A stretch of DNA of 64,000 bases, from NCBI RefSeq assembly GCF_000953825.1, contig NZ_BBUL01000088.1, positions 62,001-126,000 on the forward strand, in the 5' to 3' direction. The stretch's first letter is position 1; each line of letters starts with the position of its first letter. Below, one piece after another: positions 4,281 through 37,987 of this stretch. Below the pieces are notes generated by a model. That model saw only the letters and a program-made list of their open reading frames with translations, made no database searches and had not been told where the DNA came from. This DNA is from Cellvibrio sp. OA-2007 (lineage in GTDB: Bacteria > Pseudomonadota > Gammaproteobacteria > Pseudomonadales > Cellvibrionaceae). A program made the translations under genes and the position numbers.

Positions 4281-4346
4281 AGCGAGTTCTCAGGGTGAGC
4301 AGATTAGAAAAAATTAAATACGCCGCGATTCAGGCGCAACTGCAGC

Positions 4347-6445: not shown

Positions 6446-6636
6446 TTAATACTCCCATAACCCACGATTACACGCGGTTAACACGCTTTTGCATTGACTA
6501 CCTGAGCAGACATACAAATTGATTCGCTACTATATTCGATGGAAGGCGCGATTGGGATCAGAAGCGGGGGCAAAACAATGGTGATGAGGCTGCTAGAGAA
6601 AAGATAATCGCCCCACAAGCTAGTGAGGCCATTACA

Positions 6637-7110: not shown

Positions 7111-7237
7111 AGTGATTCACTTATAAATATTGTATTAATTAAAATCGAGTTTTGTAGCCAGTATATTGACCTGCAATCTTTGGCGGCGGTGCCTGACCTT
7201 CCAAATACACCAATGGGAATTACCGAATATTACACAA

Positions 7238-8545: not shown

Positions 8546-8841
8546 TTTGCCCCTCTCTTGCGCCTGGCATTTTTTAATTCAGCAATTGAGCTTGGTTGTT
8601 CTGGTTTAAAAAGTGCGGAAATAGGGGCGAGCTGGTCGAGCGCAGCGGCAAGCAGAATCAGAGATTCCAAGGTAATTGAACCACTCACTTCAAAGCGCTT
8701 GATGGAGGATTCGGAAACGCCCGACAACTTTGCCAGCGTCTTGCGCGATAAGTTCCTGGCCAGCCGCAACTGTCTGGCGTTTTGCCCCAGGGAGCGCGCA
8801 AGCTCAGCAGGTGAATAAAGCATATGCGTTAGTGACACCAT
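8542..8841 (-). CDS. hipB: HipB-like antitoxin, XRE-type helix-turn-helix repressor
   Basis: 99 residues. The helix-turn-helix covers roughly 14-65 (LARSLGQNARQLRLARNLSR, then TLAKLSGVSESSIKRFE), the usual Cro/C1 fold. A basic C-terminal tail (KNARRKRGAK) may contact the toxin or DNA. It is the first gene of a two-gene operon with the HipA-type toxin (4-base overlap). Two TTGGTC-N6-GACCAA palindromes upstream are its likely operators, giving autoregulation. A second Met at residue 7 is an alternative start. Confidence 0.9.
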   Translation of the reverse strand: MVSLTHMLYSPAELARSLGQNARQLRLARNLSRKTLAKLSGVSESSIKRFEVSGSITLESLILLAAALDQLAPISALFKPEQPSSIAELKNARRKRGAK

Positions 8842-8860
8842 ATTATCCTAGCGATACCAA

Positions 8861-8878
8861 TTGGTCATATTTGACCAA
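8861..8878. promoter_or_regulatory. hipBA operator 1
   Basis: TTGGTC-ATATTT-GACCAA, a perfect inverted repeat of 6-bp arms, 20 bp before the antitoxin start. It matches operator 2 in both arms. Confidence 0.75.
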
Positions 8879-8901
8879 CTATAGCACTTAATATCAAATA
8901 A

Positions 8902-8919
8902 TTGGTCTTTTATGACCAA
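8902..8919. promoter_or_regulatory. hipBA operator 2
   Basis: TTGGTC-TTTTAT-GACCAA has the same arms as operator 1. The centres are 41 bp apart, about four helical turns, so both sites face the same side of the DNA and cooperative binding is plausible. Confidence 0.72.
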
Positions 8920-8920
8920 T

Positions 8921-8958
8921 AAAAAATCCCCCGCCAACACTAGTTAACGGGGGATTTT
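8921..8958 (-). terminator. Terminator after the small exported protein gene
   Basis: ATCCCCCG (8926-8933) pairs with CGGGGGAT (8948-8955), and the minus-strand transcript ends in a T run (complement of 8921-8926). It sits directly against hipBA operator 2 and insulates the toxin locus from upstream transcription. Confidence 0.8.
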
Positions 8959-8982
8959 CGGACTTATGCGGTGCGCCGCTTG

Positions 8983-9372
8983 TTACTTCGCCAAGGCTTC
9001 CAGCGCTGTTTTGTTCTCTGTGCTTAGGCTGTGATTGAAGGTCATAACCATTTCTGCCAGCTGCTTTTCTACTTCCGTTGTGGATTCGGTTTCGGTGACA
9101 GTTTTCAAAGCCGCAAGATCATCGGCTTTGGCCTGATGTTCAACGTTATGGATTGCTTGGGCAATAGCGCGGGTCGCTTCGCTGTTGGCTTCGTCTTTAC
9201 TGATCGCAACCAAGGCTGCTTTATGGTCGGCAGAAGGGTAGTGATTCAGTTCGGTAAGAATTTTTGCCATGGTGGCAATCGCGTTGGATTCTGCAAACGT
9301 CAGTGGGGAAATAACCAGCAGCATAAACAACGCGATAGCGCTAGCCGATAAGGTAGAGGTTTTATTTTTCAT
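8983..9372 (-). CDS. Small exported helical protein, function unknown
   Basis: 129 residues. A signal peptide (lysine-rich start, hydrophobic core about 10-25, cleavage after TFA) is followed by an all-helical, acidic, alanine-rich mature part with heptad-like spacing and no cysteine. I do not recognise the family. It is monocistronic, with its own terminator. Confidence 0.65.
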   Translation of the reverse strand: MKNKTSTLSASAIALFMLLVISPLTFAESNAIATMAKILTELNHYPSADHKAALVAISKDEANSEATRAIAQAIHNVEHQAKADDLAALKTVTETESTTEVEKQLAEMVMTFNHSLSTENKTALEALAK

Positions 9373-9516
9373 CTTTTCTGGCTCCTATGTAGTTATGTTT
9401 GGAAGACTTACCTTTACAAAGGCACGGATTATGACACGACCAACATAAACTAGTTCGTGATACGAGCCGCTGTTCGGGGAGATTCGAAGTAACAGTGCGA
9501 TGAGGATCTAGGAACC

Positions 9517-10200
9517 TTACCGGGATTGACGCGGCGCAGGTTGCGCCTGATATTGTTCTGCGGAATGTGTAGTTTTGTTTGCCTCTGCAAACAGGGACTT
9601 AATCGACGAAATAGCTAAAAGCAAAAAAGCGAAAGCGCAGAGTTTGTAGGTGAGTTTTACCCAAGAGCGCTTGGCGTGTTTAAACAAGCGGGCGACTACG
9701 GCGGCACAAAAAAATGACCAGAGAATAGAGGACACCATAAAGCCAACGAAAAAAATACCGTAGTCCGTGAGGGTGGGATTGCTCACACCTACTGCGCCCA
9801 TGGCGCTGCCTAGCGCCGCCCAATAAGCAATATTGTGCGGATTAGTGAGCGAAAGAATCATGCCTTTATGCATGGCTTTTTGGGGATCAACCACGCCAGC
9901 TCCGCCAATCGCAAATTCCTGACTGGCTGAGCGCCAAGAGTCGCACGCCAACCAGAGCAAATATATTGCCCCAGCTATTCCCACAGGGACGCGCAAAAAT
10001 TCCAACTGCAATAACAAACCCACACCAATTAAGCCGAGCAATGCCCAAGTGGCGTCACCCACCAGCGAACCCAATTGAACCATCAGCGCCGATTTGAATC
10101 CACCGCGAGCACCTTGACGTACCGTTTCCGCAAATACAGCACCGGGAGCGGCATTAAAAATAAGGCCAAGCACAAAAGCAGAAATAAATAATGTGGACAT
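9517..10200 (-). CDS. LysE/RhtB-family amino-acid exporter
   Basis: 227 residues with about six membrane helices. The N-terminus (FNAAPGAVFAETVRQGARGGF) is the LysE-family signature with its conserved PG and the RxG loop. The family exports amino acids or related small molecules across the inner membrane. It starts 27 bp after the nitrate-reductase fusion gene on the same strand and is probably cotranscribed. Its substrate and the reason for this pairing are not evident. Confidence 0.85.
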   Translation of the reverse strand: MSTLFISAFVLGLIFNAAPGAVFAETVRQGARGGFKSALMVQLGSLVGDATWALLGLIGVGLLLQLEFLRVPVGIAGAIYLLWLACDSWRSASQEFAIGGAGVVDPQKAMHKGMILSLTNPHNIAYWAALGSAMGAVGVSNPTLTDYGIFFVGFMVSSILWSFFCAAVVARLFKHAKRSWVKLTYKLCAFAFLLLAISSIKSLFAEANKTTHSAEQYQAQPAPRQSR

Positions 10201-10227
10201 GATGTTTAGGAAGCCTGAACTATTGGA

Positions 10228-13200
10228 TTAATACACATCCCGCAAATACCGTTTATCCATATTTAATTTGCGGATGTAATTCACTGTTTCGGCCTCATCG
10301 AATTTGCCGTATTGCTGGATGATATCGCGCAGTGCTTGGTCTACGTCTTTCGCCATACGACTGGCATCGCCGCAGACGCAAAAGTAGGCGCCCTGCTCTA
10401 ACCACTCCCACAACTCTGCGCCGCGTTCGCGCATGCGATCTTGCACGTAGATTTTTTGTGTTTGATCGCGCGAGAAAGCGAGACTCAATTCATTGAGCAC
10501 ACCGTCTTTTTGGAATTGCTGAAGTTCATCTTGATAATAAAAATCACTCGCCGCGTGTTGCTCGCCAAAGAACAACCAGTTTTTACCTTGATCGCCACGC
10601 GCTTGGCGCTCTTGTAAAAAGCCGCGGAAAGGTGCAACGCCAGTGCCTGGGCCGACCATAATTAAGGGCGTATCGCCTTTTTCGGGTACGTGGAAATGTT
10701 TGCTTGGCTGCACAAAAATTGGAATATCTACACCGTCGGCACGATCAGCAAGGAAGGTTGATGCAACACCTTTGCGGATTTTTTTGCTATCGCGGAAGCG
10801 CGAGTAGCGCACCGCAGATACAGTGAGATCAATGCGATTGGGTTGCGCTTTGCTGCTGGAGGCGATGGAGTACAAACGCGGCTGCAGGCGTTTGAGCAGC
10901 GGAATTAATTCATCAACACTGGCGCGAATCGGGAACTCTTGCAGTATGTCTACCAACTGGCGACCGTAGAGCCATTCTTGTAATTCAGCTTTCTGTTCGG
11001 CATCGAGCAGTTTTTGTAAATCTTTGCTGTTGCTGCGCTGCGCGATAAAATTTAGCGCTTCCAAACTGGGACGGCAAATTTCATAATTTTCCAGCAGCGC
11101 TTGGTGCAAGGGTTTTTCGTGCGTATCTACCACCACCGGCGCCGCCGAATTTAAATTCAGTAATTGCTCCAATTCAAATACATACTCAGGGCAATTTTTT
11201 GGCCATACACCCAGTGCATCGCCCGCTTCATAGCTGATACCAGAGTCACCCAGATCAAAACCGAATTGACGCACATCTTTACTTGAACCTTCCGCATTTA
11301 AGCGCTGGTTAATCACCAAACGCGAGCCATAGGGATTGGCTTTGCCATAAGCAGCAGATGAAGAAGGTGCAGACGATGTAGTTGATGTCGCAGTCATGGC
11401 AGATGGCTGGTTCGCAGCGTTTAAGGGTGCTAGTTGCTCACTGAGCTTAGCAAACCATTGCGCCGCTGGCGCTTCAAAATCTGTATCGCAATCCACTCGC
11501 TCCACTAAGGCTTTAGCGCCCAGCACTTGCAAACGGGCAAATAATTTTTTGCCGTGACCGCAGAATTGATCGTAATTGGAATCACCCAATGCCAGAAGGG
11601 CAAATTGCAAATCGTTTAATGCGGGTGCGGCGTCGCTATTTAATTGGTTCCAAAAATCACCGCCGCTGTCGGGTGCATCGCCATCACCAAAGGTGCTGGT
11701 GACAAATACAGCGAGTTTATTGGCGGCTAATTTTTCAAGTGAATAATCATTCATGCATTTAACATTCACCGCCCAGCCTTGCGCCGATAGTTGCTGCGCA
11801 AAATTTTCAGCCAGGGTTTCCGCATTGCCCGTTTGTGATGCCCAAAGCAGCAACAATTCTGGTTTTGCTTGCGCGGCGGAGGCACTCACCCCCATTGCCC
11901 CAACACCTATCGGCAGCACACGGCTAAACATGCCGGCGAGCAAACCATTTACCCAGGTGCGATGAGCAGGATTAATTGGTGCATCAGCAGGCAGTGCGGG
12001 CACGGCGGAAATTAATTTAGCAGTCGCTTGCAAGCCGCTGATATAACCGCCCAGATAAGTGCGCTCGGCCTCGGAAAAATTCGGTGCTATTGCTTCTACT
12101 ACACCGATTTTTTCGGCGAAGGTTTTAATCAAGGTCATGCTGGTTTCCTCAGCTACAGCAGCAAAAGCCATAGGGACTTCATAATCGTAATCATGGCTAT
12201 CGGAATGCTCAGCAGAATCAGACTCCTCTACAAACACTTCGACACGCTTAAGCGCAACCGCAGCGATTTTTAATTCTGGCTGCTGGGAAATCGCATCAAT
12301 TTTATCGCTGGTGACTGCATTAATGCAGAGGTTATCGCCATAGATATCATTCCAGTGAATCGGCGCAAAACAACAACCGGGTTGCACGCGGTCAGTTACC
12401 ACAGCGGGCAAAATGGCGTAGCCACGACGCGAGCGAATTTCAACTTTGTCTTTATTGTTGATGCCTAACTCGGCGGCGTCTTGCGGATGAATCTCTACAA
12501 ACGTGCCGGGGTTTAATTTATTGAGTGTGGCAATTTTTCCGGTTTTGGTGAGCGTGTGCCATTGATGCTGCACGCGGCCAGTATTTAACACCATAGGGAA
12601 ATCAGCACTGGGCATTTCCGCCGGATCTACATGGGGGCGCGGGTGAAAAATCGCCTTGCCGGAATCGGTCGCAAATTGCAGTTGCGGTTTACTGCCATCT
12701 TCCTCAACTTTTAATGGCTGATGAATGCCGTTATTTAAATAGCGAATCGGATTGCGGTTGGAGTTTTCATCGGCGCAGGGCCACTGCAAAGGATCAACAC
12801 GCAAACGGTCATAACTGACACCGCGCAGATCGTAACCGGTTTTGGGGTTGTAGCTTTGTTTGATTTCATCAAACACGTCGGAGGCAGAGGTAAAATTAAA
12901 GCCTTCGCTAAAACCCATCTCCCGCGCTACACGGGCAATAATTTCCCAATCGGCCATAGCCTCACCGGGTGGCTGCACAGCTTCTTGCATCAGGGTGATA
13001 TTGCGCTCGGAGTTAATCATCACCCCTTCGGCTTCTGCCCACAAAGCGCCGGGCAATAAAATATCGGCGTAGCGATTAGTTTCGGTATCGAGAAAGGCAT
13101 CTTGCGCGATAACCAATTCCGCTTTTTGCAAACCTTCAATCACGATTTTGCGATTGGGTACGGATGCAACCGGATTAGTGCAAATCACCCAACAAGCTTT

Positions 13201-14397
13201 TATATCGCCCGCCACCATGCGCTCGAACATATCGACTGTGCCTTTGCCGAGTTTGGTGCTAATGCTGCCCGCTTCCACACCCCACATCTGCTCGATAAAT
13301 TCGCGATCTTTTTCAACTAATAAGGTGCGCTGACCGGGCAAGCCCGGCCCCATATACCCCATCTCCCGCCCGCCCATAGCATTGGGTTGGCCGGTGAGTG
13401 AAAACGGGCCACTGCCGAGGCGGCAAATTTTTCCCGTCGCCAAATGCAGGTTACAAATCGCGTTGGTATTCCAGGTGCCGTGGGTGCTTTGATTTAAACC
13501 CATAGTCCAGCAGGTCATAAACTCGGGCGCATTGCCGATCATCTCGGCCGTGTTAATTAATGACTCGACAGAAAGGCCGGTAATTTCACTGACTTTTTCC
13601 GGCGTGTAATCCGCCAAAAATTCGGGAAAATTTTCCCAGCCTTGGGTGTGCTGGGCGATAAAATCGGCATCGGTTTTGCCATTTTTATGGAGCAAAAATA
13701 ACAGGCCGTTTAACAACGCGAGATCGGTGCCGGGTTTGATCGGCAAATAGAGATCGGCTTTATCGGCCGTGGTAGTGCGGCGCGGATCCACCACGATTAA
13801 TTTGGCACCGGCTTTGACGCGATCCATCATGCGCAGATACAAAATCGGGTGACAGTCGGCCATGTTGGCGCCTATTACCAAAAACAGATCGCTGTGATCA
13901 AAATCCTGATAGGAACCGGGTGGCGCATCGGAGCCGAGCGAGAGCTTGTAACCCGCGCCCGCACTCGCCATGCACAGGCGCGAGTTGGATTCGATATTGT
14001 TGGTGCGAATAAAGCCTTTGGCGAGTTTGTTGGCGAGGTATTGGGATTCGATCGACATCTGCCCCGAGACGTAAAAACTGATCGCCTCTGGGCCGTATTG
14101 GTCGAGAATATCGCGCAAGCGTTTTGCGGTAGTGCTGATTGCCTGGGCTATGGGTGTTTTGACGGGATCGCGGCGGCGCTCACCGCGCACAAACGCCGAT
14201 TCCATGCGACCAGAGTTAGTGAGCGCTTGGGCGCTGGTCTGGCCTTTGGTACACAGACGGCCAAAATTGGACGGATGGTTTTTATCGCCAGTGACTTTGA
14301 TGACCTTGGCGCCGTCGGTTTCTAACACCATGCCGCAGCCCACGCCGCAATAGGGGCAAACGGAACGCACGGACTTTTTCACAGCAGAATCTGACAT
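10228..14397 (-). CDS. Assimilatory nitrate reductase fused to CysJ-type NADPH flavoprotein reductase
   Basis: 1389 residues. The N-terminal half is a molybdopterin nitrate reductase of the NasA type: the 4Fe-4S motif CPYCGVGCG (about 14-22), then the bis-MGD oxidoreductase domains and the C-terminal dinucleotide-binding domain to about 730. A linker carries [15 protein letters not shown] (about 780), like the N-terminus of CysJ. A flavodoxin domain follows ([11 protein letters not shown], about 848-990), then FAD-binding and NADPH-binding domains ([20 protein letters not shown] at about 1247, ending [10 protein letters not shown]). One polypeptide could thus carry electrons from NADPH through FAD, FMN and Fe-S to molybdenum and reduce nitrate to nitrite in the cytoplasm. 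No nitrite reductase or Nas transporter is in the window. Confidence 0.93.
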
Positions 14398-14866
14398 AAG
14401 CTAGCAACTCCTCATTGGGAGGGGTTTAGCAAGCGCTATGCCAGTGAACCGAAGTAGCCTGTAATTCCTCGTGCAGTGTTATATCTGCGCCAAGAAAACC
14501 ACCTAATCATTTGATAAATAAAGGATTTATAATTATTTAACAACAGTAAAACAACATTCATTCCCTATTAGGTTAATCTGCTGCCGCCCTTTTATGCATC
14601 ACAAGAATGCATATTTAAGCTTATCGGGCACACAATCGCTTTCGATTGGTGCGTTATTGCATTACTGAAACATCCACCTAAAAACACGTGCAGATAAAAA
14701 CGCACCAAAAACTATCACCCAGAGCCAGCAAAAGCTCTCTAAACTTAACAACCGCCACGCCTTTTACCTTGTTTTAGCCAATACAGCAGCAAAACAGCAA
14801 AAAATACCTAAAATCAACTATATTCAATGACATAGTTATAACCAGCAACTCGTTGACGGCGTGCGC
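14398..14866. other. Divergent intergenic region between the nitrate reductase fusion and the PilZ-like gene
   Basis: An AT-rich region of about 470 bp. It holds an inverted repeat TATGCAT-N7-ATGCATA (14593-14613), a possible regulator site. Near the nitrate reductase start, CCTC-N5-GAGG can form a small leader hairpin. I see no gene and no clear riboswitch. Confidence 0.5.
14593..14613. promoter_or_regulatory. Inverted repeat TATGCAT-N7-ATGCATA
   Basis: Seven-base perfect arms with a 7-bp spacer, 196 bp upstream of the nitrate reductase start and 254 bp upstream of the PilZ-like gene. The binding protein is unknown. Confidence 0.35.
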
Positions 14867-17045: not shown

Positions 17046-19151
17046 ATGACGACTACCGATACTATCCGACTCCTGATTTTGAATAATCAACGCTCCGAAG
17101 CCGAGCGTTTGATCAGCATGCTGCACGCCTCCGGCCACCCTTGCCGCGCGCAACATGTCGAGAGTGAAGAAGCACTCGTTAAACTGCTGCAGGAGCAGAG
17201 CTGGGATTTGTTGATTGGCCATTACGACACCAGCTCACCCACACCACAGACAGCGATCAAACAAATTCGCCGACTCAATAAAGATGTACCGGTTATCCTG
17301 CTCTACGATGTGGACGGAGAAAGCAGCCCTTTTGCCGTAATTGAAGGCCTGCGCATGGGCGCAACCGATGTGGTTGATCTGGATAACGACCAGCATTTAT
17401 TGCTCGTCATAGACCGCGAACTGGGCAACCGCGAACAGCGTCAGGCGCGCCGTAATACCGACCGCCGCTTTCGCGAAGCCGAGCGCCGCAGCCAACAATT
17501 GCTCGACAGCTCGCGCGATGCGATCGCTTTTATTCAGGATGGCCTGTATCTCTACGCCAATGAATCCTTTGCGGAACTGTTTGGCTATCAAGACAAAGAC
17601 GATATAGAAGCCATGCCGATTATGGATATGGTGGCCGATAAAGATCAGGCCCGTTTGAAGAACTTCCTGAAAGATTTCACCTTCAAAGGTGATGAGGCCG
17701 AATCCAGCACTCTCGGTTTTGCCGGCATCACCAAAGACGACAAAGAAACCCATATAGATTTGGAAGTATCACTTGTCACTTACGACGAAGAGCCCTGCAT
17801 CCAATTCCTTGCCCGCGCCTCGATGAATTCGGCCAACAATGCCAATAACGAGGAGCTGGAAGCCCAGCTTAAACAAATTAAATGGCAGGACTTAGTTACC
17901 GGCACCTACAACCGTCAATACCTGCTAAATCAGCTCGACCACATCATCGACACTGTGGATGAAAAACAGTACTACTGCCTCTTTTATATTGAGTTGGATA
18001 ACTTTAGCGGGCGCGTAAAAGATACCTTCGGCGTTGCCGGTGCCGATCTGGCGCTGATTGATATAGCCACCCTGCTGCGCGCCAAAGCCAATACCAGCGA
18101 CACCATTGCGCGCTTGGGCGATTCTACCTTTGCCATTATTTCACCCAATGTGAAAGCCGATGCGGCGGTCAACCGCGCCACACAGCTCTGCAAAGATTTG
18201 GAAGGTCATATTATCGAGATAGATCACAAAACCCTGCAGATCACCTGCAGCATTGGTATCTCGCTAATCAACGAAACCACCACCAGCACCAACACAGTCA
18301 TTGAACAAGCGCGAACCGCGATGCTCAAGGTACATGCAGAGAATGGCAACAATGCCATGCTGTTTGAACCTGAAACACCCAAGATAGACCTTAAAATTGA
18401 CGTTGCCGCAGCCATTCAACACGCATTGGATAACGACCGTTTCCGGCTCTTGTTCCAGCCAATTATCAGCCTGCGCGGCTCCGACGAGGAATACTACGAA
18501 GTCTACTTGCGCATGATGGATGAGCAGGGCAACGAAATTTCCCCCAATCACTTTTTGGAGGCAGCTTCGAACATGAGTGCCTGCACCAAAATCGACCGCT
18601 GGGTGATTTTGGAGTCCATCAAGATGCTGTCGCAACATCGCGCCAAGGGCAATAAAACCAAACTGATTGTCAATATTGGGCGCCAATCCTTGTGCGATGA
18701 ATCGCTCATTCCCTGGCTTGCCGTTGCATTTAAAGCCGCCAAGTTGAGCGCCGATTCGATTGTATTCCAGGCTCAGGAAATTGACGTCACCAATCATTTG
18801 AATGCTGCTAAACACTTTTCCGAAGGCTTGGGCAAGCTCAAAACCAGTTTTGCGATTAGCAACTTTGGCTGCTCATTGAACCCGTTCAACACCCTAGCCC
18901 ATGTACCAGCCAATATGATCAAGGTCGATGGTTCCTTCACTACCGACATTCAAAATAACAATGAAAGCCCCGAAACGCTGATTCAGTTAATTGAAAAGCT
19001 AAACGGCGAAAACAAAATCACGCTGGTGCCGTTTGTAGAGAATGCGAGCGTGCTTTCCACCCTCTGGCAAGCGGGCGCTCACTATATTCAAGGCCACTAT
19101 TTGCAAGAGCCAAGCCACGGAATGACGTACGACTTTAATATGGAAAGCTAG
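17046..19151 (+). CDS. fimX: FimX-like response-regulator/PAS/GGDEF/EAL protein
   Basis: 701 residues, close to the length of Pseudomonas FimX. Order: receiver-like domain (about 8-125), PAS domain (about 155-260), degenerate GGDEF domain (about 285-435, GDSTF in place of GGDEF), then a degenerate EAL domain (about 450-695, E-V-Y in place of E-A-L, and NFGCSLNP instead of DDFGTGYS). Both enzymatic centres are therefore probably dead, as in FimX, where the EAL domain is a cyclic di-GMP receptor controlling type IV pilus assembly at the pole. A hairpin just after the stop may end transcription. The neighbouring PilZ-like gene supports a cyclic di-GMP role. Confidence 0.88.
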   Translation: MTTTDTIRLLILNNQRSEAERLISMLHASGHPCRAQHVESEEALVKLLQEQSWDLLIGHYDTSSPTPQTAIKQIRRLNKDVPVILLYDVDGESSPFAVIEGLRMGATDVVDLDNDQHLLLVIDRELGNREQRQARRNTDRRFREAERRSQQLLDSSRDAIAFIQDGLYLYANESFAELFGYQDKDDIEAMPIMDMVADKDQARLKNFLKDFTFKGDEAESSTLGFAGITKDDKETHIDLEVSLVTYDEEPCIQFLARASMNSANNANNEELEAQLKQIKWQDLVTGTYNRQYLLNQLDHIIDTVDEKQYYCLFYIELDNFSGRVKDTFGVAGADLALIDIATLLRAKANTSDTIARLGDSTFAIISPNVKADAAVNRATQLCKDLEGHIIEIDHKTLQITCSIGISLINETTTSTNTVIEQARTAMLKVHAENGNNAMLFEPETPKIDLKIDVAAAIQHALDNDRFRLLFQPIISLRGSDEEYYEVYLRMMDEQGNEISPNHFLEAASNMSACTKIDRWVILESIKMLSQHRAKGNKTKLIVNIGRQSLCDESLIPWLAVAFKAAKLSADSIVFQAQEIDVTNHLNAAKHFSEGLGKLKTSFAISNFGCSLNPFNTLAHVPANMIKVDGSFTTDIQNNNESPETLIQLIEKLNGENKITLVPFVENASVLSTLWQAGAHYIQGHYLQEPSHGMTYDFNMES

Positions 19152-19666: not shown

Positions 19667-20737
19667 ATGCGTCGCTTTAACGCCTCAGCGACAGCTCCTC
19701 GCCCAGCAGGTGCGCTGACCCGCTCCCTCTGTGCGCTTGGACTGTCACTCGCTCTCTCCGCAGTGTCTCTCCAGACCCAAGCCGCCTGCCAATATCAGGT
19801 AACCGGTCAGTGGGGCACAGGCTTTACCGCCACGGTTAAACTCACCAATGAAGGCACCGCTGCCGTCAGCAGTTGGAATCTGGATTGGCAGTATGCAGGC
19901 GACAACCGCATCACTGGCGGCTATGACGCCGTATTTAGCGGCACCAATCCCTATACCGTTAAAAACGCCAGCTGGAATGGCACGCTGCAACCCGGCCAAA
20001 GCCTGACCTTTGGTTTTCAGGGGACAAAAGGGGCAGCCGCCGCAGAAGTTCCGACACTGACCGGCAACCTGTGTGGCACTACAACTGCCTCATCGGCCAG
20101 CTCCACTGTCACGTCGGCCAGTAGCTCTTCGCGCTCCAGCAGCTCAAGCTCGCTAATACCAAGCAGCAGCTCAGCGCCTAGCTCCGTATCTTCGTCTTCA
20201 TCCTCCAGTGCTCCGGCACCCTGGACACTGAACACCACCGACTCTTACCTCAACTTCGCCACCATTAAAAATACCCACACGCTGGAAGCACATCACTTCA
20301 CCACCATCAGTGGCGATATCAACAGCGCCGGTGTGGCTACCTTGAACATCGATCTGAACAGCGTCAACACCGGAGTTGCACTGCGCGATCAACGTATGCG
20401 CGACCTGCTGTTTGAAACCGCCAGCTACCCCAGCGCGATTGTCACCGTCGCCGTGCCTGCCAACCTGATCAGCAGCCTGGCGATTGGCCAAAGCGCAGCA
20501 ACCGATATTTCGGCCAGCCTCAATCTGCATGGTGTAACTGGTGCCATCACCACCAAAGTCTCGGTGCAGAAGCTATCTGCCTCCCGCGTGCTCGTGCAAA
20601 GCATCGCGCCAGTGCTTATTAAAGCTGGCGATTACTCGCTCACCAATGGTGTTGAAGCCCTCCGCGCGGCAGTGGGAATTGCCTCGATTAGTGTCGCCGT
20701 TCCGGTGGACTTTGCGCTCGTCTTTGACGCCCGTTAA
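19667..20737 (+). CDS. Secreted cellulose-binding (CBM2) YceI-domain protein, Cbp2E-like
   Basis: 356 residues. A signal peptide (1 to about 39) precedes a family-2 cellulose-binding module (about 40-135; conserved Trp residues in SSWNLDWQY and NASWNGTLQPGQ, one Cys near each end). A serine-rich linker (about 140-180) leads to a YceI domain (about 185-354: SYLNFATIKNTHTLEAHHF...). YceI domains form a lipocalin-like barrel that binds isoprenoid quinones. The architecture matches Cellvibrio japonicus Cbp2E, linked to redox support of cellulose degradation by lytic polysaccharide monooxygenases. It lies 27 bp upstream of the Cbp2D-like gene. Confidence 0.88.
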   Translation: MRRFNASATAPRPAGALTRSLCALGLSLALSAVSLQTQAACQYQVTGQWGTGFTATVKLTNEGTAAVSSWNLDWQYAGDNRITGGYDAVFSGTNPYTVKNASWNGTLQPGQSLTFGFQGTKGAAAAEVPTLTGNLCGTTTASSASSTVTSASSSSRSSSSSSLIPSSSSAPSSVSSSSSSSAPAPWTLNTTDSYLNFATIKNTHTLEAHHFTTISGDINSAGVATLNIDLNSVNTGVALRDQRMRDLLFETASYPSAIVTVAVPANLISSLAIGQSAATDISASLNLHGVTGAITTKVSVQKLSASRVLVQSIAPVLIKAGDYSLTNGVEALRAAVGIASISVAVPVDFALVFDAR

Positions 20738-20764
20738 TTGGATGAAGCATAGAGAGAAACTATT

Positions 20765-23700
20765 ATGAAAAAATTATTGCAACTGTCGCTGCTGTCCACC
20801 GGGATCGCCTTCGGGCTTATCGCCCCGGGCACTGCTCTGGCGCAAGGCGCCTGTAGTGTAAATTTCCAAACTGAAAATAACTGGGGTGCAGGCGCCCAGT
20901 ACAAAGTCACCCTCACCAATACCAGCGCCGCCAAAACCAGCTGGGAACTCTGCTGGACCTATGCCGGTAGCGATACTGTGTCGCAACTGTGGGAGGGTAC
21001 TTACACCCAAACCGGTAAAAATGTGTGTGTGAAAAATGTCGGTTACAACGGCAATTTAGCCACTAACGGCAGCGTCGCGTTTGGCTTGATTACCACCAAT
21101 CCCGGCACCACACCTACCGAGTTCACCCTGAACGGTGCCGCCTGTGGCGGTGTCTCTAACAGTAGCTCCAGCGCACCAAGCAGCGCCTCGTCGATTAGCA
21201 GTAGCAGCAGTAGCGCTCCTGCGGCAGCGGCTCGCTGGTTGCTCGATGGCACTGCTTCAACACTGCACTTTGTAACTGTGAAAAAGAGTACTGCCGGGGT
21301 GGAAACACCGGAGAACATGACCTTTACCCAGCTGCAAGGCACGGTCGCAACCAGTGGTCAGGCAACACTGAGCATTCCACTGGCTAGCATCAGCACGGGC
21401 GTGGATATCCGCAATACACGCATGCAGAGCCTGTTGTTTGAGTCCGGCTTTTTGCCCAGCCTGCACTTCACCACTCAACTCGATTTGGCCGCGATTGATG
21501 CCATGGCCGTTGGTAGCACCAGTGTGCAGAGTTTGACTGGCAACCTGGTATTGCACGCGATAGTCAAGCCAGTGTCATTTGATGCGCTGATCGTAAAACA
21601 CGCCAGCAACCGCGTCAGTTTCTCGCCACGCAAACCTATCGCAATCAACTCTACCGATTTCGATATGAATGCCGGTGTAGAAGCCCTGCGCGCAGTGGCG
21701 GGTTTGTCTACCATCAGCGAGAGAGTCCCGGTCTACTTCAAGATGTTCCTGACCCGCGACAACCCGACCAATACTCCTGCTATCGCTCTCGCCGCTGCAC
21801 CTAATGCAGCCCTTGGCCTGAGCGGCAGCATGAGTAACACCACCGGTGTAGCCAGCCTTAACTGGGTCGATGCGAGCAGCAACGAAAGCGGCTTTTTGGT
21901 ACGCCGTAAAGGCGCCGATGGCCGCTGGGTAACCGCAACCGGTACCGCAGCCAACACAGTCAGCTACCTCGACAGCCTGACTGTAGCAGGCAGCTATGAC
22001 TACAAAGTGATCAGCTATACCGACAGTATTCCAGCTGCGGCTACCACCCCGATTAGCTTGACCTTTGAACCCACCACCGGCTCATCGGCCAGCAGTATCT
22101 CAAGCTCATCCGTAACCTCTACCAGCGCTTCAAGTAAAAGCTCAGCGTCACTCAGCTCTGGCAGTTCCAGCAGCGTTGGCCCAGGCAACTCAGCCCGCGG
22201 TGAAATAGTGTGGAGAGAACAATGTGCTGGTTGTCACGGCACCCGCATGACGGTGAGCCTCACGAAATACCCCGAGAACTCCACCGCCTTGCAAACCTAC
22301 ATCGCCGGCAACATGCCCGCGAGCAACCCAAGCGCTTGTGTTGGCCAATGTGCCGCCGATGCAGCTGCCTTGATTATTGCGTGGACCAAGTCACCAAGCG
22401 GTCAGCCAGTGAATGATGCCAACGCATTTGCCTGTACCAGCACGACTGCCCAACCGGGCAAACGCACCTTGCGCTTGTTAACCCGCGCGGAATACCAGCG
22501 CTCGGTTGGCGATTTAGTGGGCTATACCGACGATGTTATTTCACGCCTGCCAGATGACGCCATTTCCGGTGCCTTCCAAAACAACAACGATTTGTTTGTT
22601 GATGCAGGTCGTTACTCCAACTACGTTGCAACTGCCGAGCGTATCGCTGAATCCGTTGCCACTCGTTGGAACTCAGTATTGGCTTGTACACCTTCAACAG
22701 CTTGTGCAGATAAGTTGGTAAGTGATTTGGCGCCACGTATTTTCCGTCGCCCATTGACCGCTACCGAACAAACCAGCTACCAAGCGCTAGCGCGCGGCAC
22801 CACCGGTGGCCGCACCGTGGCAGAAGGCATGACAGTTGCGTTGGCGACTATGTTGTCAGCGCCTCAATACCTGTATCGCTCGGAAGTGGGTGATTTAACC
22901 AGCGGCACCACCTACAAGTTAAATGGCTACGAGATGGCAACCTATCTGAGTTATACCTTCACCGGTACGACTCCGAATGCGACCCTGATGGCAGCAGCGG
23001 CAAACGGCAATTTGAATACGGTTGCCGGTGTACGCCAACAAGCCGCTACCCTGCTGAACTCAGCCACTACCAAAATATTGCTGGGCCAGCTAGTGAACCG
23101 TTGGTTGGGAACAGAAACTCTGCCAACCCAAGCCAAAGTAGGCGTAGCCAATTTTGCCACCTTGGCAAACGACATGAAGGCCGAGCTGAGCAAAAACTTC
23201 TCTGCCGCCATGCTGGAGCCAAGCTCTACCTTTGCGACCCTGTACAACCCCACCTTCACTCACGTGAATCAGCGTTTGGCCTCCCACTATGGTCTGGCTT
23301 ACAGCGGCACAGCGGACGCCGATGGCTTTGTGCGCGTCAACACCAGTGACCGCGGCGGTATCTTAACCTCGGGGGCATTTATGTCGCGCTATGCGCGGGA
23401 TAACGATGCCAACCTGGTGACTCGTGCGGTAGCCGTGCGTCGCAAGATGATGTGTCAGGACATTCCTGAGCCACCATCAGGCACCTCGTTGGATCGCGAT
23501 GCATTAGGTGCAGCGCACGCCGCGTTCCTGGCTGCGCCAACCACCACTGAGCGTATGGCGGTGGCGAAGATTACCGAAAATCAACCTTGCTCCAACTGTC
23601 ACCTGGAAATCATCAACCCATTGGGTGGTGGTATGGAGAACTTCGATGCAACCGGCCGAGTTCGCTCTACCGATTTGCGCGGAAACCCGATTGATGCGCG

Positions 23701-24079
23701 AGCGACTTTCTTCTCGCCCTATCAAAAACTGCAATTCGCCAACGACCCGAATCGGGTGATTTATTCACCTGAAATCAGCTTTAACGGCGCCAAAGATCTG
23801 GCTCGCCTGATGGTTGAACAACCACTGGTATCCCAGCAGGCGAAAACCTGTTTGGCGACCCAACTGGTTAGCTTCAGCAGCGGTGTAGCGACTACTTTCC
23901 TGATCGACCGGGACGCGACTCGTGAAGTGCCCTACAACATGTCACTCGAAGAGCGCAGTGCTTATCGCTGCAATATCGAGAAGCTGACCAATGTGCTGAA
24001 CACTAGCGGCCCACGCGCGATGCTGCAGGAAATTCCGGCATTGGATTCAGTGATCTACCGGCAGGAGTGGGCGCGCTAA
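20765..24079 (+). CDS. Secreted CBM2-YceI-cytochrome c-DUF1592/1588/1585 protein, Cbp2D-like
   Basis: 1104 residues. Order: signal peptide (1-26), CBM2 (about 27-125), Ser linker, YceI (about 155-330), fibronectin-like domain (about 345-435), Ser linker, cytochrome c domain with CAGCH (about 486), then a long region resembling the planctomycete-type DUF1587/1595/1592/1588/1585 set (EYQRSVGDLVGY, RIFRRPLTATEQ, LSAPQYLYRSEVG, RGGILTSGAFMSRYA). A second CxxCH (CSNCH, about 942) sits in the DUF1588/1585 part. A cellulose-anchored electron carrier taking electrons from quinone to heme fits Cbp2D of C. japonicus; the chemistry of the DUF region is unknown. Confidence 0.87.
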   Translation: MKKLLQLSLLSTGIAFGLIAPGTALAQGACSVNFQTENNWGAGAQYKVTLTNTSAAKTSWELCWTYAGSDTVSQLWEGTYTQTGKNVCVKNVGYNGNLATNGSVAFGLITTNPGTTPTEFTLNGAACGGVSNSSSSAPSSASSISSSSSSAPAAAARWLLDGTASTLHFVTVKKSTAGVETPENMTFTQLQGTVATSGQATLSIPLASISTGVDIRNTRMQSLLFESGFLPSLHFTTQLDLAAIDAMAVGSTSVQSLTGNLVLHAIVKPVSFDALIVKHASNRVSFSPRKPIAINSTDFDMNAGVEALRAVAGLSTISERVPVYFKMFLTRDNPTNTPAIALAAAPNAALGLSGSMSNTTGVASLNWVDASSNESGFLVRRKGADGRWVTATGTAANTVSYLDSLTVAGSYDYKVISYTDSIPAAATTPISLTFEPTTGSSASSISSSSVTSTSASSKSSASLSSGSSSSVGPGNSARGEIVWREQCAGCHGTRMTVSLTKYPENSTALQTYIAGNMPASNPSACVGQCAADAAALIIAWTKSPSGQPVNDANAFACTSTTAQPGKRTLRLLTRAEYQRSVGDLVGYTDDVISRLPDDAISGAFQNNNDLFVDAGRYSNYVATAERIAESVATRWNSVLACTPSTACADKLVSDLAPRIFRRPLTATEQTSYQALARGTTGGRTVAEGMTVALATMLSAPQYLYRSEVGDLTSGTTYKLNGYEMATYLSYTFTGTTPNATLMAAAANGNLNTVAGVRQQAATLLNSATTKILLGQLVNRWLGTETLPTQAKVGVANFATLANDMKAELSKNFSAAMLEPSSTFATLYNPTFTHVNQRLASHYGLAYSGTADADGFVRVNTSDRGGILTSGAFMSRYARDNDANLVTRAVAVRRKMMCQDIPEPPSGTSLDRDALGAAHAAFLAAPTTTERMAVAKITENQPCSNCHLEIINPLGGGMENFDATGRVRSTDLRGNPIDARATFFSPYQKLQFANDPNRVIYSPEISFNGAKDLARLMVEQPLVSQQAKTCLATQLVSFSSGVATTFLIDRDATREVPYNMSLEERSAYRCNIEKLTNVLNTSGPRAMLQEIPALDSVIYRQEWAR

Positions 24080-24121
24080 GGCGCGCTCCATTCTCCCAGT
24101 TAACGAATTGGAGTCAAAAAA

Positions 24122-25378
24122 ATGAGATCTAAAGATTGTTTTGATCAAGAGCGCCGGAACTTCCTGCGTGTTGTACAACGCTCGGGTATCGCCATGGGCA
24201 CCATTCAAGCGTCCAGCCTGCTCGCCGGTGTGATGATGGCGCGGGTAGCAGAAGCGCAATCCGGAACCGCCACCAAACACGTTTCGGTGTTTATGCCCGG
24301 CGGCTGCACCCCTGCCAAATGGGTTCCAACAGGCGCCACCTTACCCATCCAATCTGCGCCGCTGCAGAGCCATTATTCTGCTGGTCGGGTTGCCTTAATC
24401 TCCAACGCCACCATGTTCCAGGGCGGCCATGGGGTGATGTTTTGTCGCTTCAATGAAGCGAATCCATGGGGTAAACAGAGCATCGACGTCAACCTCGGCA
24501 AGGTATTGAGTGCTAACTCAAACTCACCGGTTAAGTGGCTAAACCTGGGTACTACCGGCGGATCTGAATTGTCGCGCGACAGCGCAGGCATTCCGACTAT
24601 CACTAGCCCCGCAGCTGCATTGGATATTTTGTTTGCGGGTGGCGGTGGCGGCACGGGTACCGGTACTGTTCCACCGCGTAAATCATTGGTCGATTACCAC
24701 GCAACTGCGATCAATGATTTGAAAGCTAAATTGGGCCAGCACGAGTTGCAAAAACTGGATAGTCATTTAAGTGCGATTAGAGAGTTAGAGTCCAAGATCG
24801 TCACTACCGGTGGCAGTACTGGTTCCTGTCCGCGCCCACCCGAGAGTGCGGTAGTTGGCTTTGATGCGACATCGCGGGTGATGAGTGAAATCGCCGTACT
24901 GGCATTGAAATGTAACCTGACCTCGTCGGTATCTCTGGCCTTTGGCGATGACCAACATAACCACGTGCTTGATGGCGCCATGATCGTTGACACCACCGGT
25001 GCTCATCGCCCACGTCCATCACACGACTCACACCACAACCAGGGCAATCCCAACTACGCGGGTTACTACGATAACGACGTGCGCTACTACATGTCGCTGA
25101 CTGCGCAGTTGCTGGATAAGTTGCAGGCGGAAAATCTGTTGACCTCTACCATAGTCACCCAGGTATCAGACATGGGTAACGTAGATGCACACAGCGGCAG
25201 CAACTGTCCAATGCTGGTGGCGGGTGCTGGAGTTAAAGGCGGCAAAGTCGTTAATGCCGGTGGCGCTGGTCAAACGGCACTGTTCCAAACCGTTGGTTTA
25301 GCGCTGCAAGCAAATCAGGGCGCAAATGGAAGTTTGTACCGCAGCTGGGGTTCACAAACTATTGCTGGGATATTTTAG
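24122..25378 (+). CDS. DUF1552 family exported protein
   Basis: 418 residues. The N-terminus has a twin-arginine-like signal (RRNFLRVV, then a hydrophobic stretch ending AEAQ), suggesting export in folded form, possibly with a cofactor. The body matches DUF1552 (HVSVFMPGGCTPAKW, NATMFQGGHG, DDQHNHVLDGAM, VTQVSDMGNVDAHSGSNCPMLVAG). It has many histidines that could bind metal. Proteins of this family are commonly encoded next to DUF1592/1588 proteins, as here (42 bp after that gene). Function unknown; a partner of the upstream cytochrome protein is the simplest reading. Confidence 0.85.
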   Translation: MRSKDCFDQERRNFLRVVQRSGIAMGTIQASSLLAGVMMARVAEAQSGTATKHVSVFMPGGCTPAKWVPTGATLPIQSAPLQSHYSAGRVALISNATMFQGGHGVMFCRFNEANPWGKQSIDVNLGKVLSANSNSPVKWLNLGTTGGSELSRDSAGIPTITSPAAALDILFAGGGGGTGTGTVPPRKSLVDYHATAINDLKAKLGQHELQKLDSHLSAIRELESKIVTTGGSTGSCPRPPESAVVGFDATSRVMSEIAVLALKCNLTSSVSLAFGDDQHNHVLDGAMIVDTTGAHRPRPSHDSHHNQGNPNYAGYYDNDVRYYMSLTAQLLDKLQAENLLTSTIVTQVSDMGNVDAHSGSNCPMLVAGAGVKGGKVVNAGGAGQTALFQTVGLALQANQGANGSLYRSWGSQTIAGIF

Positions 25379-25442
25379 TAGCTGGAGTTAAGCGCATAAA
25401 AAACCCGGCGCAAACCTACTGCCAGTCAGATAAGTAAATCAT

Positions 25443-25512
25443 CGTCACTCCCGCTCGCGGGAGTCCAGTTTTAGATCTTGAAACCTATGGATCCCCGCTC
25501 GCGGGGATGACG
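25443..25512. repeat. Dispersed double-hairpin repeat, copy A
   Basis: A 70-bp element beginning CGTCACTCCCGC and ending GCGGGGATGACG. Each end folds on itself (ACTCCCGC-TC-GCGGGAGT and ATCCCCGC-TC-GCGGGGAT), joined by an AT-rich middle containing AGATCTTG. Copies B (31237-31312) and C (37918-37987) are in inverted orientation. A mobile REP/MITE-like intergenic element is likely. Confidence 0.85.
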
Positions 25513-25631
25513 CTCTGATAAATATATTTTGCTTAACTGAAGAGCATGACGGTGTACGCCGGGCTTTCTCTCCCGCGCTGCGATGCTACACAAAAAACTA
25601 AAAAATTCGCTTTCAAAAAAAGGTTTCTATT

Positions 25632-26231
25632 ATGAAAACTTTAATCGTCTACGCTCATTTACTTGCCGCTTGTGTTGCTATCGGTATTTTGCTGATACAG
25701 GATTTAGCCTTGGCTAAAACGCGCGGAAAGGCACTTCCGGCAGCGGCGATCAAAGACCTGACCAAATCAGCCAGCATTATGTTTATTGCGTTGATCGCGC
25801 TGTGGATTAGCGGACTCTCATTAGTGCTGATCGGCTATTTAGATAACCCGGCGCAGTATTTAATGAACGAAAAACTCTGGGCCAAATTTACCGTAGTAGC
25901 GGTATTAACATTGAATGGTATTGCACTGCATTATTTCAGTTTCCCCCGCGTTACCTGCGCACGCGGATTCTTGTCGGTACCGGGTTTTGAACAAATATTG
26001 GTAGTCTTAACCGGTGCAATTTCATCTGTATCCTGGCTGTTCGCCTGCTATCTCGGCATTGCGCGCCCATGGAATTACACCGCAGATTACAGCTACATCA
26101 TGTTCATCTACAGCGGTTTGCTTATCTGCGCCATTATCGTCGCCGGAGAAGCCCTGCGCTCCATGCGCCGCGACGACTCTCCCCTACTTACCGAACAGGC
26201 GTCATTAAATCGCCCGCAAAAATGTGAGTAA
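25632..26231 (+). CDS. Four-helix inner-membrane protein, paralogue of the 40586-41149 protein
   Basis: 199 residues with four to five membrane helices and a short polar tail. A histidine in the first helix (VYAHLLAA) and another before LHYFSFP could ligate heme. Strongly similar to the protein at 40586-41149, with shared runs such as EKLWAKF/QKLWAKF, LTLNG and ACYLGIARPWN. I cannot name the family securely (DUF2214 or CopD-like are candidates). It follows the Cbp2D/DUF1552 genes in the same direction, 253 bp away with repeat copy A in between, so a link to the redox locus is possible but not shown. Confidence 0.75.
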   Translation: MKTLIVYAHLLAACVAIGILLIQDLALAKTRGKALPAAAIKDLTKSASIMFIALIALWISGLSLVLIGYLDNPAQYLMNEKLWAKFTVVAVLTLNGIALHYFSFPRVTCARGFLSVPGFEQILVVLTGAISSVSWLFACYLGIARPWNYTADYSYIMFIYSGLLICAIIVAGEALRSMRRDDSPLLTEQASLNRPQKCE

Positions 26232-26284: not shown

Positions 26285-26313
26285 AAGCGAACACCGGCGG
26301 GGTTCGCTTTTTT
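26285..26313 (+). terminator. Terminator after the four-helix membrane protein gene
   Basis: AAGCGAAC and GTTCGCTT with a 9-nt loop followed by a T run. It reaches the stop codon of the convergent GGDEF-EAL gene (26312). Confidence 0.82.
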
Positions 26314-28291
26314 ATTGTTTCGACGAACGAATAGCAGGTACGGGTGATGGGCGCCCCAAATAATATCCCTGCATAGAGACGATCCCTAACTTAAGTAACT
26401 TATCAAACTGCGCTGCGGACTCGACCCCTTCCACCACTACTTTCAAACCCATTTTCTGTGCAATTAACATTGCGCTTTCGATGATCACCAAGCCTTGCTT
26501 GTCGAGCTGCGCAGTAAACGAGCGATCAATTTTAATTCCCGTAACGGGAAATTCATGCAGGCGCGAAAGCGATGAATAACCAGTACCAAAGTCATCAATA
26601 TAAACCTCAACTCCAAAACTGCGCAGCTGTGTTACGGTTTCCAAGGTCGTATCTAAATGCGCCTCACCAAATAAACTCTCAGTCACTTCCAAAATCAATG
26701 CATCCGGTGGGAACGCGGTCTCCTGCAAAATACTAATTACACGCGCCGAAAAATTTTGCGCAAGCAACTGCTTGATAGAGACATTGATCGCCAACTTAAT
26801 CGCGGAGTCTTGCTGGCGCCACTCACGCGCCTTACTGCAGGATTGATATAAAACCCAATCACCTAGCGCGATAATACGATCAGTCTCTTCCGCCAAATAG
26901 ATAAATTCACATGGGTCTATCACCCCCAAGGAGGGATGATGCCAGCGCGACAACACCTCCAAGGTTTCAACCTCATTAGTGAGCGCATTAACGATGGGTT
27001 GATAAGCAAGTGTTAATTCATTTTGTTTAATAGCGTCAGATAAAGCACGACCAAGATCAAAACGCCGCTTCTGGGTCTCAGCATAAATATCGTTATAAAT
27101 GAGACTATTTCCGCGACCATTGCGCTTCACTTCTGCAACCGTTAAATCGGCTGCATGAATAATATCTTGAAAATTTATCGCATCGGTCGGGAAGTACGCC
27201 ATGCCAACACTCAGGCCAACACCCAGTGATTCATCGCGAATACAAAGCGGGGCGATCGCAGCATCTATAAGCTGTCTTGCCAGTGTTTCAGCACGCTCAC
27301 GCGTATTATCGGCCTGCGCAGTAACCAATAAAAATTCATCGCCTCCCCAACGCGCGAGAATAGCATCATCAGGACAAACCTCGTTAAAACGATAGGCAAT
27401 CATACGCAGCACCTGATCGCCAACTTCATGCCCTAAAGCATCATTAATTTGTTTAAATCGATCTAAATCCAGAAATAGAATGGCGGCTTCTTGTGGGTTA
27501 TCGGCATGCAGTTTTTTCTCCATCCAATCAATTAACCCAAGCCGATTAGGTAAGCCGGTCAGTGCATCATTGTGTGCAATGCGCTCAAGCGCACTGGTTC
27601 GCTGTTGAACACGCAACTCAAGCTCTGCATTTAAATGTTGCAAATTATTAATCAGTTGTTTGTTTTCCATTTGCAGCGTCAAGCTTTTTAACAGCACATA
27701 ATGATTATTTCGGTGACTGATAATCATTGCGACCCAAAAAACCAACCCCAGCACAGAGAATACCCAGTGTTCGCTAGCCACCCAATAAATAATCACCGAG
27801 GTAAATAACAACAAAATTGTGATGTAAATTCGGCCCGCATATTTCAACGGCGCGGTGATACCTGTAGCGCCACCAGCCAATGCAGAGATAATGACTATGA
27901 CAGTAAATTTTGCCTCTGAGGTAGCCAATTGAAAGGTGATAAAAACCATTGCCACCCATATCAAAGCGGCAGAGTGAAGCCCCAAAGTATAAAGCAACAC
28001 CCAGCCACCCACCTTAGCCTGCTCACGACTCTCATTTGCACAATAGCGCTGAAAGAAAAACCAGCACAACAATCGCAACCCGCTTAGCACAAACACCAAT
28101 GCCAACCAAACCTGAAGATAGCTAACGCCATCGGCATATAATAAAAATGCCACTCCGAGCGTAGCGGCAATATTTACACCGAGCATGGCGGGAAGATTTT
28201 GGTAGGCCAAAGCCGCAAGCTGCATCTCGACCAATGTATGCTGATCGGTAGCACGGCGATTAGGAAATGCTTGAGCTTTCTGTGTGAACAT
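26312..28291 (-). CDS. Membrane GGDEF-EAL protein (cyclic di-GMP turnover)
   Basis: 659 residues. The N-terminus has six or so membrane helices (about 35-205), then a short coiled coil, a GGDEF domain (about 243-400, with DALTGLPNR and an intact WGGDEF at about 315), and an EAL domain (about 420-655). The EAL motif reads EVL; DDFGTGYSS, KIDRSF and VVEGVE are intact, so phosphodiesterase activity is plausible. It is a single gene, convergent with the membrane protein to its left. The sensory input is unknown. Confidence 0.9.
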   Translation of the reverse strand: MFTQKAQAFPNRRATDQHTLVEMQLAALAYQNLPAMLGVNIAATLGVAFLLYADGVSYLQVWLALVFVLSGLRLLCWFFFQRYCANESREQAKVGGWVLLYTLGLHSAALIWVAMVFITFQLATSEAKFTVIVIISALAGGATGITAPLKYAGRIYITILLLFTSVIIYWVASEHWVFSVLGLVFWVAMIISHRNNHYVLLKSLTLQMENKQLINNLQHLNAELELRVQQRTSALERIAHNDALTGLPNRLGLIDWMEKKLHADNPQEAAILFLDLDRFKQINDALGHEVGDQVLRMIAYRFNEVCPDDAILARWGGDEFLLVTAQADNTRERAETLARQLIDAAIAPLCIRDESLGVGLSVGMAYFPTDAINFQDIIHAADLTVAEVKRNGRGNSLIYNDIYAETQKRRFDLGRALSDAIKQNELTLAYQPIVNALTNEVETLEVLSRWHHPSLGVIDPCEFIYLAEETDRIIALGDWVLYQSCSKAREWRQQDSAIKLAINVSIKQLLAQNFSARVISILQETAFPPDALILEVTESLFGEAHLDTTLETVTQLRSFGVEVYIDDFGTGYSSLSRLHEFPVTGIKIDRSFTAQLDKQGLVIIESAMLIAQKMGLKVVVEGVESAAQFDKLLKLGIVSMQGYYLGRPSPVPAIRSSKQ

Positions 28292-37917: not shown

Positions 37918-37987
37918 CGTCATCCCCGCTTGCGGGGATCCATAGGTTTTAAGATCTAAAACTGGACTCCCGCGAGCGGGAGTGACG
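37918..37987. repeat. Dispersed double-hairpin repeat, copy C
   Basis: A 70-bp copy (CGTCATCCCCGC...GGAGTGACG) with two perfect hairpins, the inverse of copy A with few differences. Confidence 0.85.

Follow-up and report, generated by a model that had tools for sequence, protein, structure and literature searches.

The 64,000-nt window analysed here (G000:C10:62001-126000, within the 4.6-Mb genome of Cellvibrio sp. OA-2007, 97 contigs) contains, at positions 19667-26231, four open reading frames on the forward strand that are separated by intergenic gaps of 27, 42 and 253 bp. They encode orthologues of Cellvibrio japonicus Cbp2E and Cbp2D, a DUF1552 protein, and a DUF2214-like membrane protein. 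On balance, we favour the reading that this locus specifies a redox system, secreted and anchored to cellulose, to which at least three proteins belong (Cbp2E, Cbp2D and the DUF1552 protein), and in which DUF1552 and the C-terminal DUF1587-1588 region of Cbp2D (called X132; name from PMC8981238 and PMC10916295) would form the constant core. The reading is drawn from sequence, namely from gene content, strict pairing, co-inheritance, module swapping, the predicted fold, and occurrence in genomes without a detectable AA10 lytic polysaccharide monooxygenase (LPMO). The features of the locus are the following.

19667-20737, + strand: Cbp2E orthologue, 356 amino acids (aa), with CBM2 (19781-20074) and YceI/X158 (20222-20725); assigned by Pfam and by its identity (58%) to C. 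japonicus Cbp2E
20765-24079, + strand: Cbp2D orthologue, 1104 aa, with CBM2 (20852-21145), YceI/X158 (21236-21742), X183-type cytochrome (22193-22369) and X132 region; 60% identity to C. japonicus Cbp2D
22223-22237, + strand: first CxxCH heme motif, CAGCH, residue 487, in the cytochrome domain (sequence motif)
22472-23674, + strand: X132 region, with DUF1587 (PSD3), DUF1595 (PSD5), DUF1592 (PSD4) and DUF1588 (PSCyt3), by Pfam
23588-23602, + strand: second CxxCH heme motif, CSNCH, residue 942, in PSCyt3 (sequence motif)
24122-25378, + strand: DUF1552 (HXXSHH) protein, 418 aa, with a twin-arginine N-terminus and a predicted alkaline-phosphatase-superfamily fold; by Pfam, alignment, model and pairing with X132
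25022-25036, + strand: HXXSHH motif of the DUF1552 protein, H301-x3-H305, each His kept in 33/34 aligned rows
25169-25192, + strand: D350...H357 of the DUF1552 protein, with D350 aligned to the Asp of the sulfatase SDHG motif
25632-26231, + strand: DUF2214-like membrane protein, 199 aa, five predicted helices; from a sub-cut-off Pfam match and a model

Pfam matches in the first gene were to CBM2 (1.8e-29) and YceI (5.3e-15), and those in the second to CBM2 (1.4e-20) and YceI (5.5e-14), followed by DUF1587, DUF1595, DUF1592 and DUF1588. Of the solved sequences, those most similar to the YceI domain of the second gene are the X158 domains 2x34 (7.3e-26) and 2x32 (1.1e-25); a quinone is bound in one X158 structure, as cited in PMC8981238. 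The cytochrome of the second gene, for which the Pfam match (6.9e-5) is under the curated cut-off, is closest to 8q1w and 7b21 (X183 of C. japonicus Cbp2D). The original prediction, made from this DNA alone, had described a CBM2-YceI and a CBM2-YceI-cytochrome protein with two CxxCH motifs, an architecture that Pfam and the motifs confirm. It had also named a DUF1592/1588/1585 set, of which DUF1592 and DUF1588 are present and DUF1585 (PSD2) is absent from this copy (Pfam, E <= 0.001), being found in some relatives; DUF1587 and DUF1595 had gone unnamed. The third gene matches DUF1552 (PF07586) at 1.8e-26, with 93.9 bits against a cut-off of 30. The match of the fourth to DUF2214 (PF09980) is partial and, at 25.3 bits, under the curated cut-off of 34.1, so that we call its product DUF2214-like; the model gives it five helices rather than the four first proposed.

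DUF1552 is paired with X132 across genomes

Our main sample consisted of 37 genomes (the own genome, 20 of the same genus, 3 of the same family and 13 of the same order), searched with the window Cbp2D and DUF1552 proteins. X132 rows were counted where Cbp2D matches extended well into residues 557-980, and rows were merged. Among the matches listed, 58 of 61 X132 genes were followed by a same-strand DUF1552 match at a distance of no more than 2.5 kb, which bears out the earlier suggestion that DUF1552 is conserved together with cbp2D. All three misses among these matches touch contig ends, as do the unpaired DUF1552 rows (3/62); in one of the misses, G011:C171, the beginning of a DUF1552-like protein is encoded in the final 355 bases of the contig.

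The same arrangement was seen at closer and at wider range. In 25 loci, which were picked because they held these genes, DUF1552 was the next gene downstream of 28 of the 29 X132 proteins, with gaps of -8 to 116 bp, and the next upstream of the 29th. The class, phylum and 37-genome counts are less selected: in a draw from the class, DUF1552 occurred in 4/143 genomes with DUF1592 adjoining in 4/4 (DUF1592 itself in 5/143), and in a draw from the phylum a strong DUF1552 match occurred in 7/398 genomes, with X132 adjoining in 7/7. An eighth phylum match (G547, 22.7 bits), with 14 kb around it containing no X132, was judged spurious.

The two partners have also diverged together. Pairwise distances of X132 and of DUF1552 correlated with r = 0.982 over 28 pairs; when partners were shuffled within genomes (six genomes with more than one cassette), r was 0.388 +/- 0.136, and none of 5000 shuffles attained the observed value. 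Because the within-genome shuffles never reach 0.982, this co-divergence exceeds shared species history. DUF1552 beside X132 is no chance neighbour.

Binding and electron-donor modules vary around the pair

The own genome holds a second cassette (L124, G000:C23:15000-33000), where a Cbp2E-like protein with CBM2-GH5 cellulase-Cip1-like-YceI architecture is encoded at 6453-9371, so that a cellulase is fused to a polyisoprenoid-binding domain. Upstream stands a GH6 gene, downstream one for cytochrome b561. Cytochrome b561 genes adjoin DUF1552 in three cassettes (L124 14198-14752, L127 1836-2378 and L138 4514-5065), and this neighbour is a possible inner-membrane quinol link. In G014, four cassettes stand in tandem (L126-L128, G014:C1:222000-272000), their Cbp2E variants differing in length.

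X132 proteins elsewhere carry CBM6, or three or four CBM26 with a glucose/sorbosone dehydrogenase, or have no CBM match. At L131, L134, L193 and L222 they exceed 2100 aa and combine CBM26, glucose/sorbosone dehydrogenase, cytochromes and X132, followed by DUF1552; judging by their domains, these pairs would be a starch-binding counterpart of the cellulose-binding ones. Genomes from two further families of the class (G110, L194; G177, L195, G177:C39) encode a CBM2x3-cytochrome-X132 protein, followed by DUF1552 and then by a flavocytochrome c sulfide dehydrogenase flavoprotein. Thus the binding module (CBM2, CBM6, CBM26 or none) and the donor (YceI, sugar dehydrogenase or flavoprotein) vary in these architectures, and X132 with DUF1552 appears as their constant part.

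A further arrangement was seen at L221 (G270), where an X132 protein with immunoglobulin (Ig)-like domains and DUF1552 have genes for M66- and M64-type peptidases downstream of them; the former of these carries CBM5/12.

Predicted fold and conserved residues of DUF1552

The twin-arginine translocation (Tat)-like N-terminus noted earlier for the DUF1552 protein is well conserved, with R11 and R12 invariant in 34 aligned proteins, and the protein is predicted to be Tat-exported. Its structural model (mean predicted local distance difference test score, pLDDT, 75.5) matched the fold of the alkaline phosphatase superfamily, and a weak profile similarity to sulfatases was also found. In the 34-row alignment, H357 is kept in 32 rows, and position 350 is Asp or Glu in 28. 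D350 aligns with the Asp in the SDHG motif of sulfatases; the His of that motif is not retained. Near residue 60, where the superfamily has its first metal Asp, 1/34 rows have Asp and 29/34 have Gly or Asn. As far as the sequence alignment goes, the conserved set of DUF1552 differs from that of the superfamily (nucleotide pyrophosphatases/phosphodiesterases, NPP, and sulfatases) and is His-rich, and the conserved histidines probably hold a metal.

The locus in C. japonicus and the separable membrane protein

One sampled genome, G019, was taken as C. japonicus because residues 470-560 of its Cbp2D are identical to PDB 7b21 (C. japonicus cbp2D X183) at 89 of 91 positions, the mismatches being the last two aligned, and because this Cbp2D has 1122 aa, equal to the length given in PMC12542752. 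The window proteins are 58% (Cbp2E), 60% (Cbp2D, 1132 columns), 58% (DUF1552) and 62% (membrane protein) identical to those of G019. The locus therefore belongs to the known Cbp2D/E kind, in agreement with the identity originally proposed for it, and C. japonicus itself has both extra genes. Gene order in G019 is DUF2214-like, Cbp2E, Cbp2D, DUF1552, the last two being 47 bp apart. The window thus has in common with C. japonicus the domains and order of Cbp2D and Cbp2E (described in PMC12542752 and PMC8981238), the downstream DUF1552 and the membrane-protein family, whereas the membrane gene is 3' of DUF1552 in the window and upstream of Cbp2E in C. japonicus.

The genus count covered 21 genomes, 16 of them with the cassette (G018 included, despite the contig end that truncates its Cbp2D-like protein). 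A DUF2214-like gene was found in 15 of the 16 cassette genomes and in 1 of the 5 others (Fisher p = 0.004). In most of the cassettes examined it precedes Cbp2E; in the window, G008 and G011:C220 it follows DUF1552. In G016, which has the three-gene set, a genome search gave no match to the membrane protein. G004 retains the flanks of the G001/G013 cassettes (67-91% identity) together with the membrane gene, and between these conserved flanks Cbp2E, Cbp2D and DUF1552 were not detectable. The three-gene set appears to move as a block. The membrane protein, given its mobile position, the lack of a match in G016 and its standing alone at the G004 site, is best described as a usual but separable associate, so that the original prediction, which had counted it within the set, has weaker support on this point.

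Two further placements of this gene family were seen. DUF2214-like membrane genes directly adjoin AA10 LPMO genes twice in G012 (L145, L146), and a second DUF2214-like gene with 53% identity is present in the window itself, at 40589-41149 (-), away from any cassette.

A model of the system and the alternatives to it

In the system that we propose, the CBM2 modules would keep the proteins on cellulose, the YceI domains would supply quinone or another polyisoprenoid, and electrons would pass from the X183 heme to the X132 heme. X132 would be functional only jointly with DUF1552, the predicted Tat-exported protein with the alkaline-phosphatase fold and probably metal-holding histidines, and this core may act on cellulose or on a surface co-substrate. 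Binding and electron modules would be interchangeable around the core. An LPMO may accept electrons from it without being required, and the DUF2214-like protein would have an auxiliary role, perhaps in handling electrons or metal at the membrane. A bolder version, unlikely in our estimate, is that X132 and DUF1552 represent an undescribed class of polysaccharide-attacking redox metalloenzymes, in which heme would feed a His-rich metal site on an alkaline-phosphatase fold, with exchangeable binding modules (for cellulose, starch and other glycans) and exchangeable donors. If so, DUF1552 would be the missing catalytic partner behind the proposal, made in 2025, that a Cbp2D/E heterodimer cuts cellulose directly (PMC12542752).

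Several points weigh against a core of X132 and DUF1552. Pairing in genomes indicates a shared function rather than a complex, and the complex itself, the secretion of DUF1552, its metal, the direction of electron flow and the chemistry, including direct action on cellulose, are elements that we infer. The fold match was obtained at 8-13% identity with a model whose mean pLDDT is 75.5, and D350 is not universal, 6/34 rows having another residue. There are also places where the partner differs. A third cassette of the own genome (C78) encodes a YceI-cytochrome protein with an unassigned C-terminus lacking a DUF1592 match, and DUF1501 replaces DUF1552 there; this protein was kept outside the X132 count, as DUF1592 was unmatched even at E 10 and DUF1588 was weak (0.045). 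In the class draw, DUF1592 occurred without DUF1552 in G046 (30.2 bits) and at a second place in G177 (23.8 bits), in both cases with a DUF1501 gene directly downstream of the divergent heme module, and in G177 with a flavocytochrome c sulfide dehydrogenase flavoprotein next to it. The positions of these divergent heme modules with DUF1501 are:

L125 (G000:C78:46000-62000), 7426-12313
L225 (G046), 5245-8877
L226 (G177:C21), 3897-14829

DUF1501 is a separate Pfam family, and the window DUF1552 protein has no DUF1501 match. Since DUF1501 occupies the DUF1552 place in C78, G046 and G177, the partner may be another family where the heme module has diverged, and the constant element, as far as domain content tells, would be a heme module together with its partner, which is DUF1552 in most cases and DUF1501 where the module is divergent.

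The remaining points against our reading favour the published model, in which Cbp2D/E pass quinol electrons to the copper of AA10 enzymes and DUF1552 and the membrane protein merely assist. PMC8981238 shows heme binding for the isolated X183 domain of C. japonicus Cbp2D, which in vitro also acted as reductant of two bacterial LPMOs and activated them. AA10 was found in 15/16 cassette genomes of the genus and in 2/5 others (p = 0.028), and for these two reasons LPMO supply is a possible role in Cellvibrio; the two G012 places where DUF2214-like genes adjoin AA10 genes fit as well. However, AA10 was unmatched in six of the six genomes searched for it (G011, G031, G046, G087, G110 and G177), a result that covers the AA10 family, with other LPMO families outside the search. 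Five of these carry X132 with DUF1552, and G046 has the divergent heme module with DUF1501. The absence weighs less in G011, a 670-contig draft, and G110 and G177, for which completeness is listed as 100%, have CBM2 anchors: in G110 all three CBM2 matches fall in one protein, the X132 protein. A genome search gave no YceI match in G177 and one in G110, elsewhere from the X132 locus. Conversely, G003 and G004 have AA10 without a CBM2-YceI cassette. Co-occurrence with AA10 is therefore not obligate.

Published phenotypes also speak against LPMO supply as the whole purpose of these proteins. According to PMC12542752, deletion of lpmo10B in C. japonicus leaves growth close to that of the wild type, and deletion of cbp2D or cbp2E causes a pronounced lag; adding the lpmo10B deletion to a triple mutant made no change, and deleting cbp2D or cbp2E in a quadruple mutant (lpmo10B and three cellulose-related genes) abolished growth on filter paper, a severe loss in a background free of lpmo10B. 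The cbp2D cbp2E double mutant resembled the single mutants, and growth of these mutants was impaired on cellulose alone of the polysaccharides tested (PMC13227985). When C. japonicus grows on insoluble cellulose, Cbp2D and Cbp2E are more important to it than its LPMO (PMC12542752). We consider the published model unlikely as a full account, and the original prediction, which had linked the set to LPMO electron supply, appears too narrow in this respect; an LPMO would be at most a client of a polysaccharide-anchored redox core.

Two other explanations concern the chemistry. DUF1552 could be a hydrolase of the phosphatase or sulfatase type, or could help to assemble the X132 heme domains, and stand outside the redox reaction. 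The alkaline-phosphatase-superfamily fold and the sulfatase profile similarity agree with a hydrolase, but the near absence of Asp around residue 60 and the loss of the SDHG His do not; an assembly factor need not be one-to-one and co-diverge with every X132 paralogue, an argument that is not decisive. We regard this option as quite unlikely, and the strict pairing and the fold suit a subunit or an enzyme at least as well as the maturation component first suggested. Alternatively, the core could be an oxidase or electron sink, taking sugar, quinol or flavin electrons at the polysaccharide surface and making H2O2 or passing the electrons on to O2, thereby feeding LPMOs or other oxidative attack indirectly. 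The donor-type modules of relatives (glucose/sorbosone dehydrogenase and the flavocytochrome c sulfide dehydrogenase flavoprotein) and the cytochrome b561 genes beside DUF1552 would fit such a role, which is nevertheless very unlikely in our view, as known oxidase domains were absent among the Pfam matches and an LPMO driven by X183 made less H2O2 than one driven by ascorbate (PMC8981238).

If DUF1552 is an obligatory partner, as the redox core that we favour would have it, then tests of Cbp2D without DUF1552 examined an incomplete system. An Escherichia coli strain given six genes (cel6A, cbp2E, cbp2D, lpmo10B, cel3B and cel5B) did not grow on insoluble cellulose, and its authors suggest poor activity or export as the cause. 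DUF1552 is outside this six-gene set, and its absence could contribute to the failure; the observation is suggestive only, because low activity, export problems or missing heme maturation would account for it more simply.

Relation to previously described proteins

Proteins of related architecture have been described before. TERTU_2913 and TERTU_3803 of Teredinibacter turnerae (PMC10916295) are X183 cytochromes with a C-terminal X132 as here, and their dehydrogenase-like and Cip1-like domains (X173, X122) are of kinds also found in relatives of the window locus; the main text on these proteins contains neither YceI nor gene-neighbourhood terms. PSCyt/PSD proteins of Planctomycetes and Verrucomicrobia (PMC5615132) have the PSCyt3-PSD set in common with Cbp2D. 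PSCyt3 genes are reported there to adjoin, as a rule, one family of unknown genes, and some PSCyt genes to carry CBMs; the function is given as unknown, and the passages on these genes neither name the neighbour family nor mention Cbp2D. DUF1552 is counted three times in that paper, with no occurrence in its main text.

A term search did not find DUF1552 in the texts of PMC12542752, PMC8981238, PMC10916295 and PMC13227985 (the single DUF term in each of PMC8981238 and PMC10916295 is a different domain), although the original Cbp2D/E study or supplements may mention it. Literature naming DUF1552 was found outside the Cbp2D topic, and our searches returned nothing that joined DUF1552 with DUF1592, nothing on HXXSHH, and nothing that joined DUF1501, DUF1553 and cytochrome. 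The pairing is thus partly known in other phyla; as far as the literature was searched, what is new is the link to Cbp2D/E, the test of co-inheritance and the fold. An answer on the role of DUF1552 would extend to other large uncharacterised PSCyt proteins, because the pair recurs with starch-binding and other architectures.

Surroundings of the locus

A palindrome resembling repetitive extragenic palindromic (REP) elements, CCCCGCTCGCGGGGATGACG, lies between the DUF1552 and membrane genes at window positions 25493-25512. A second copy with two mismatches is present at 37918-37937 (-), and 0 of 100 shuffles gave such a copy. The locus is flanked on both sides by genes for GGDEF-EAL proteins, at window positions 17046-19151 and 26312-28291 (-), and similar-looking genes stand in the same places in G011:C220 (L159).

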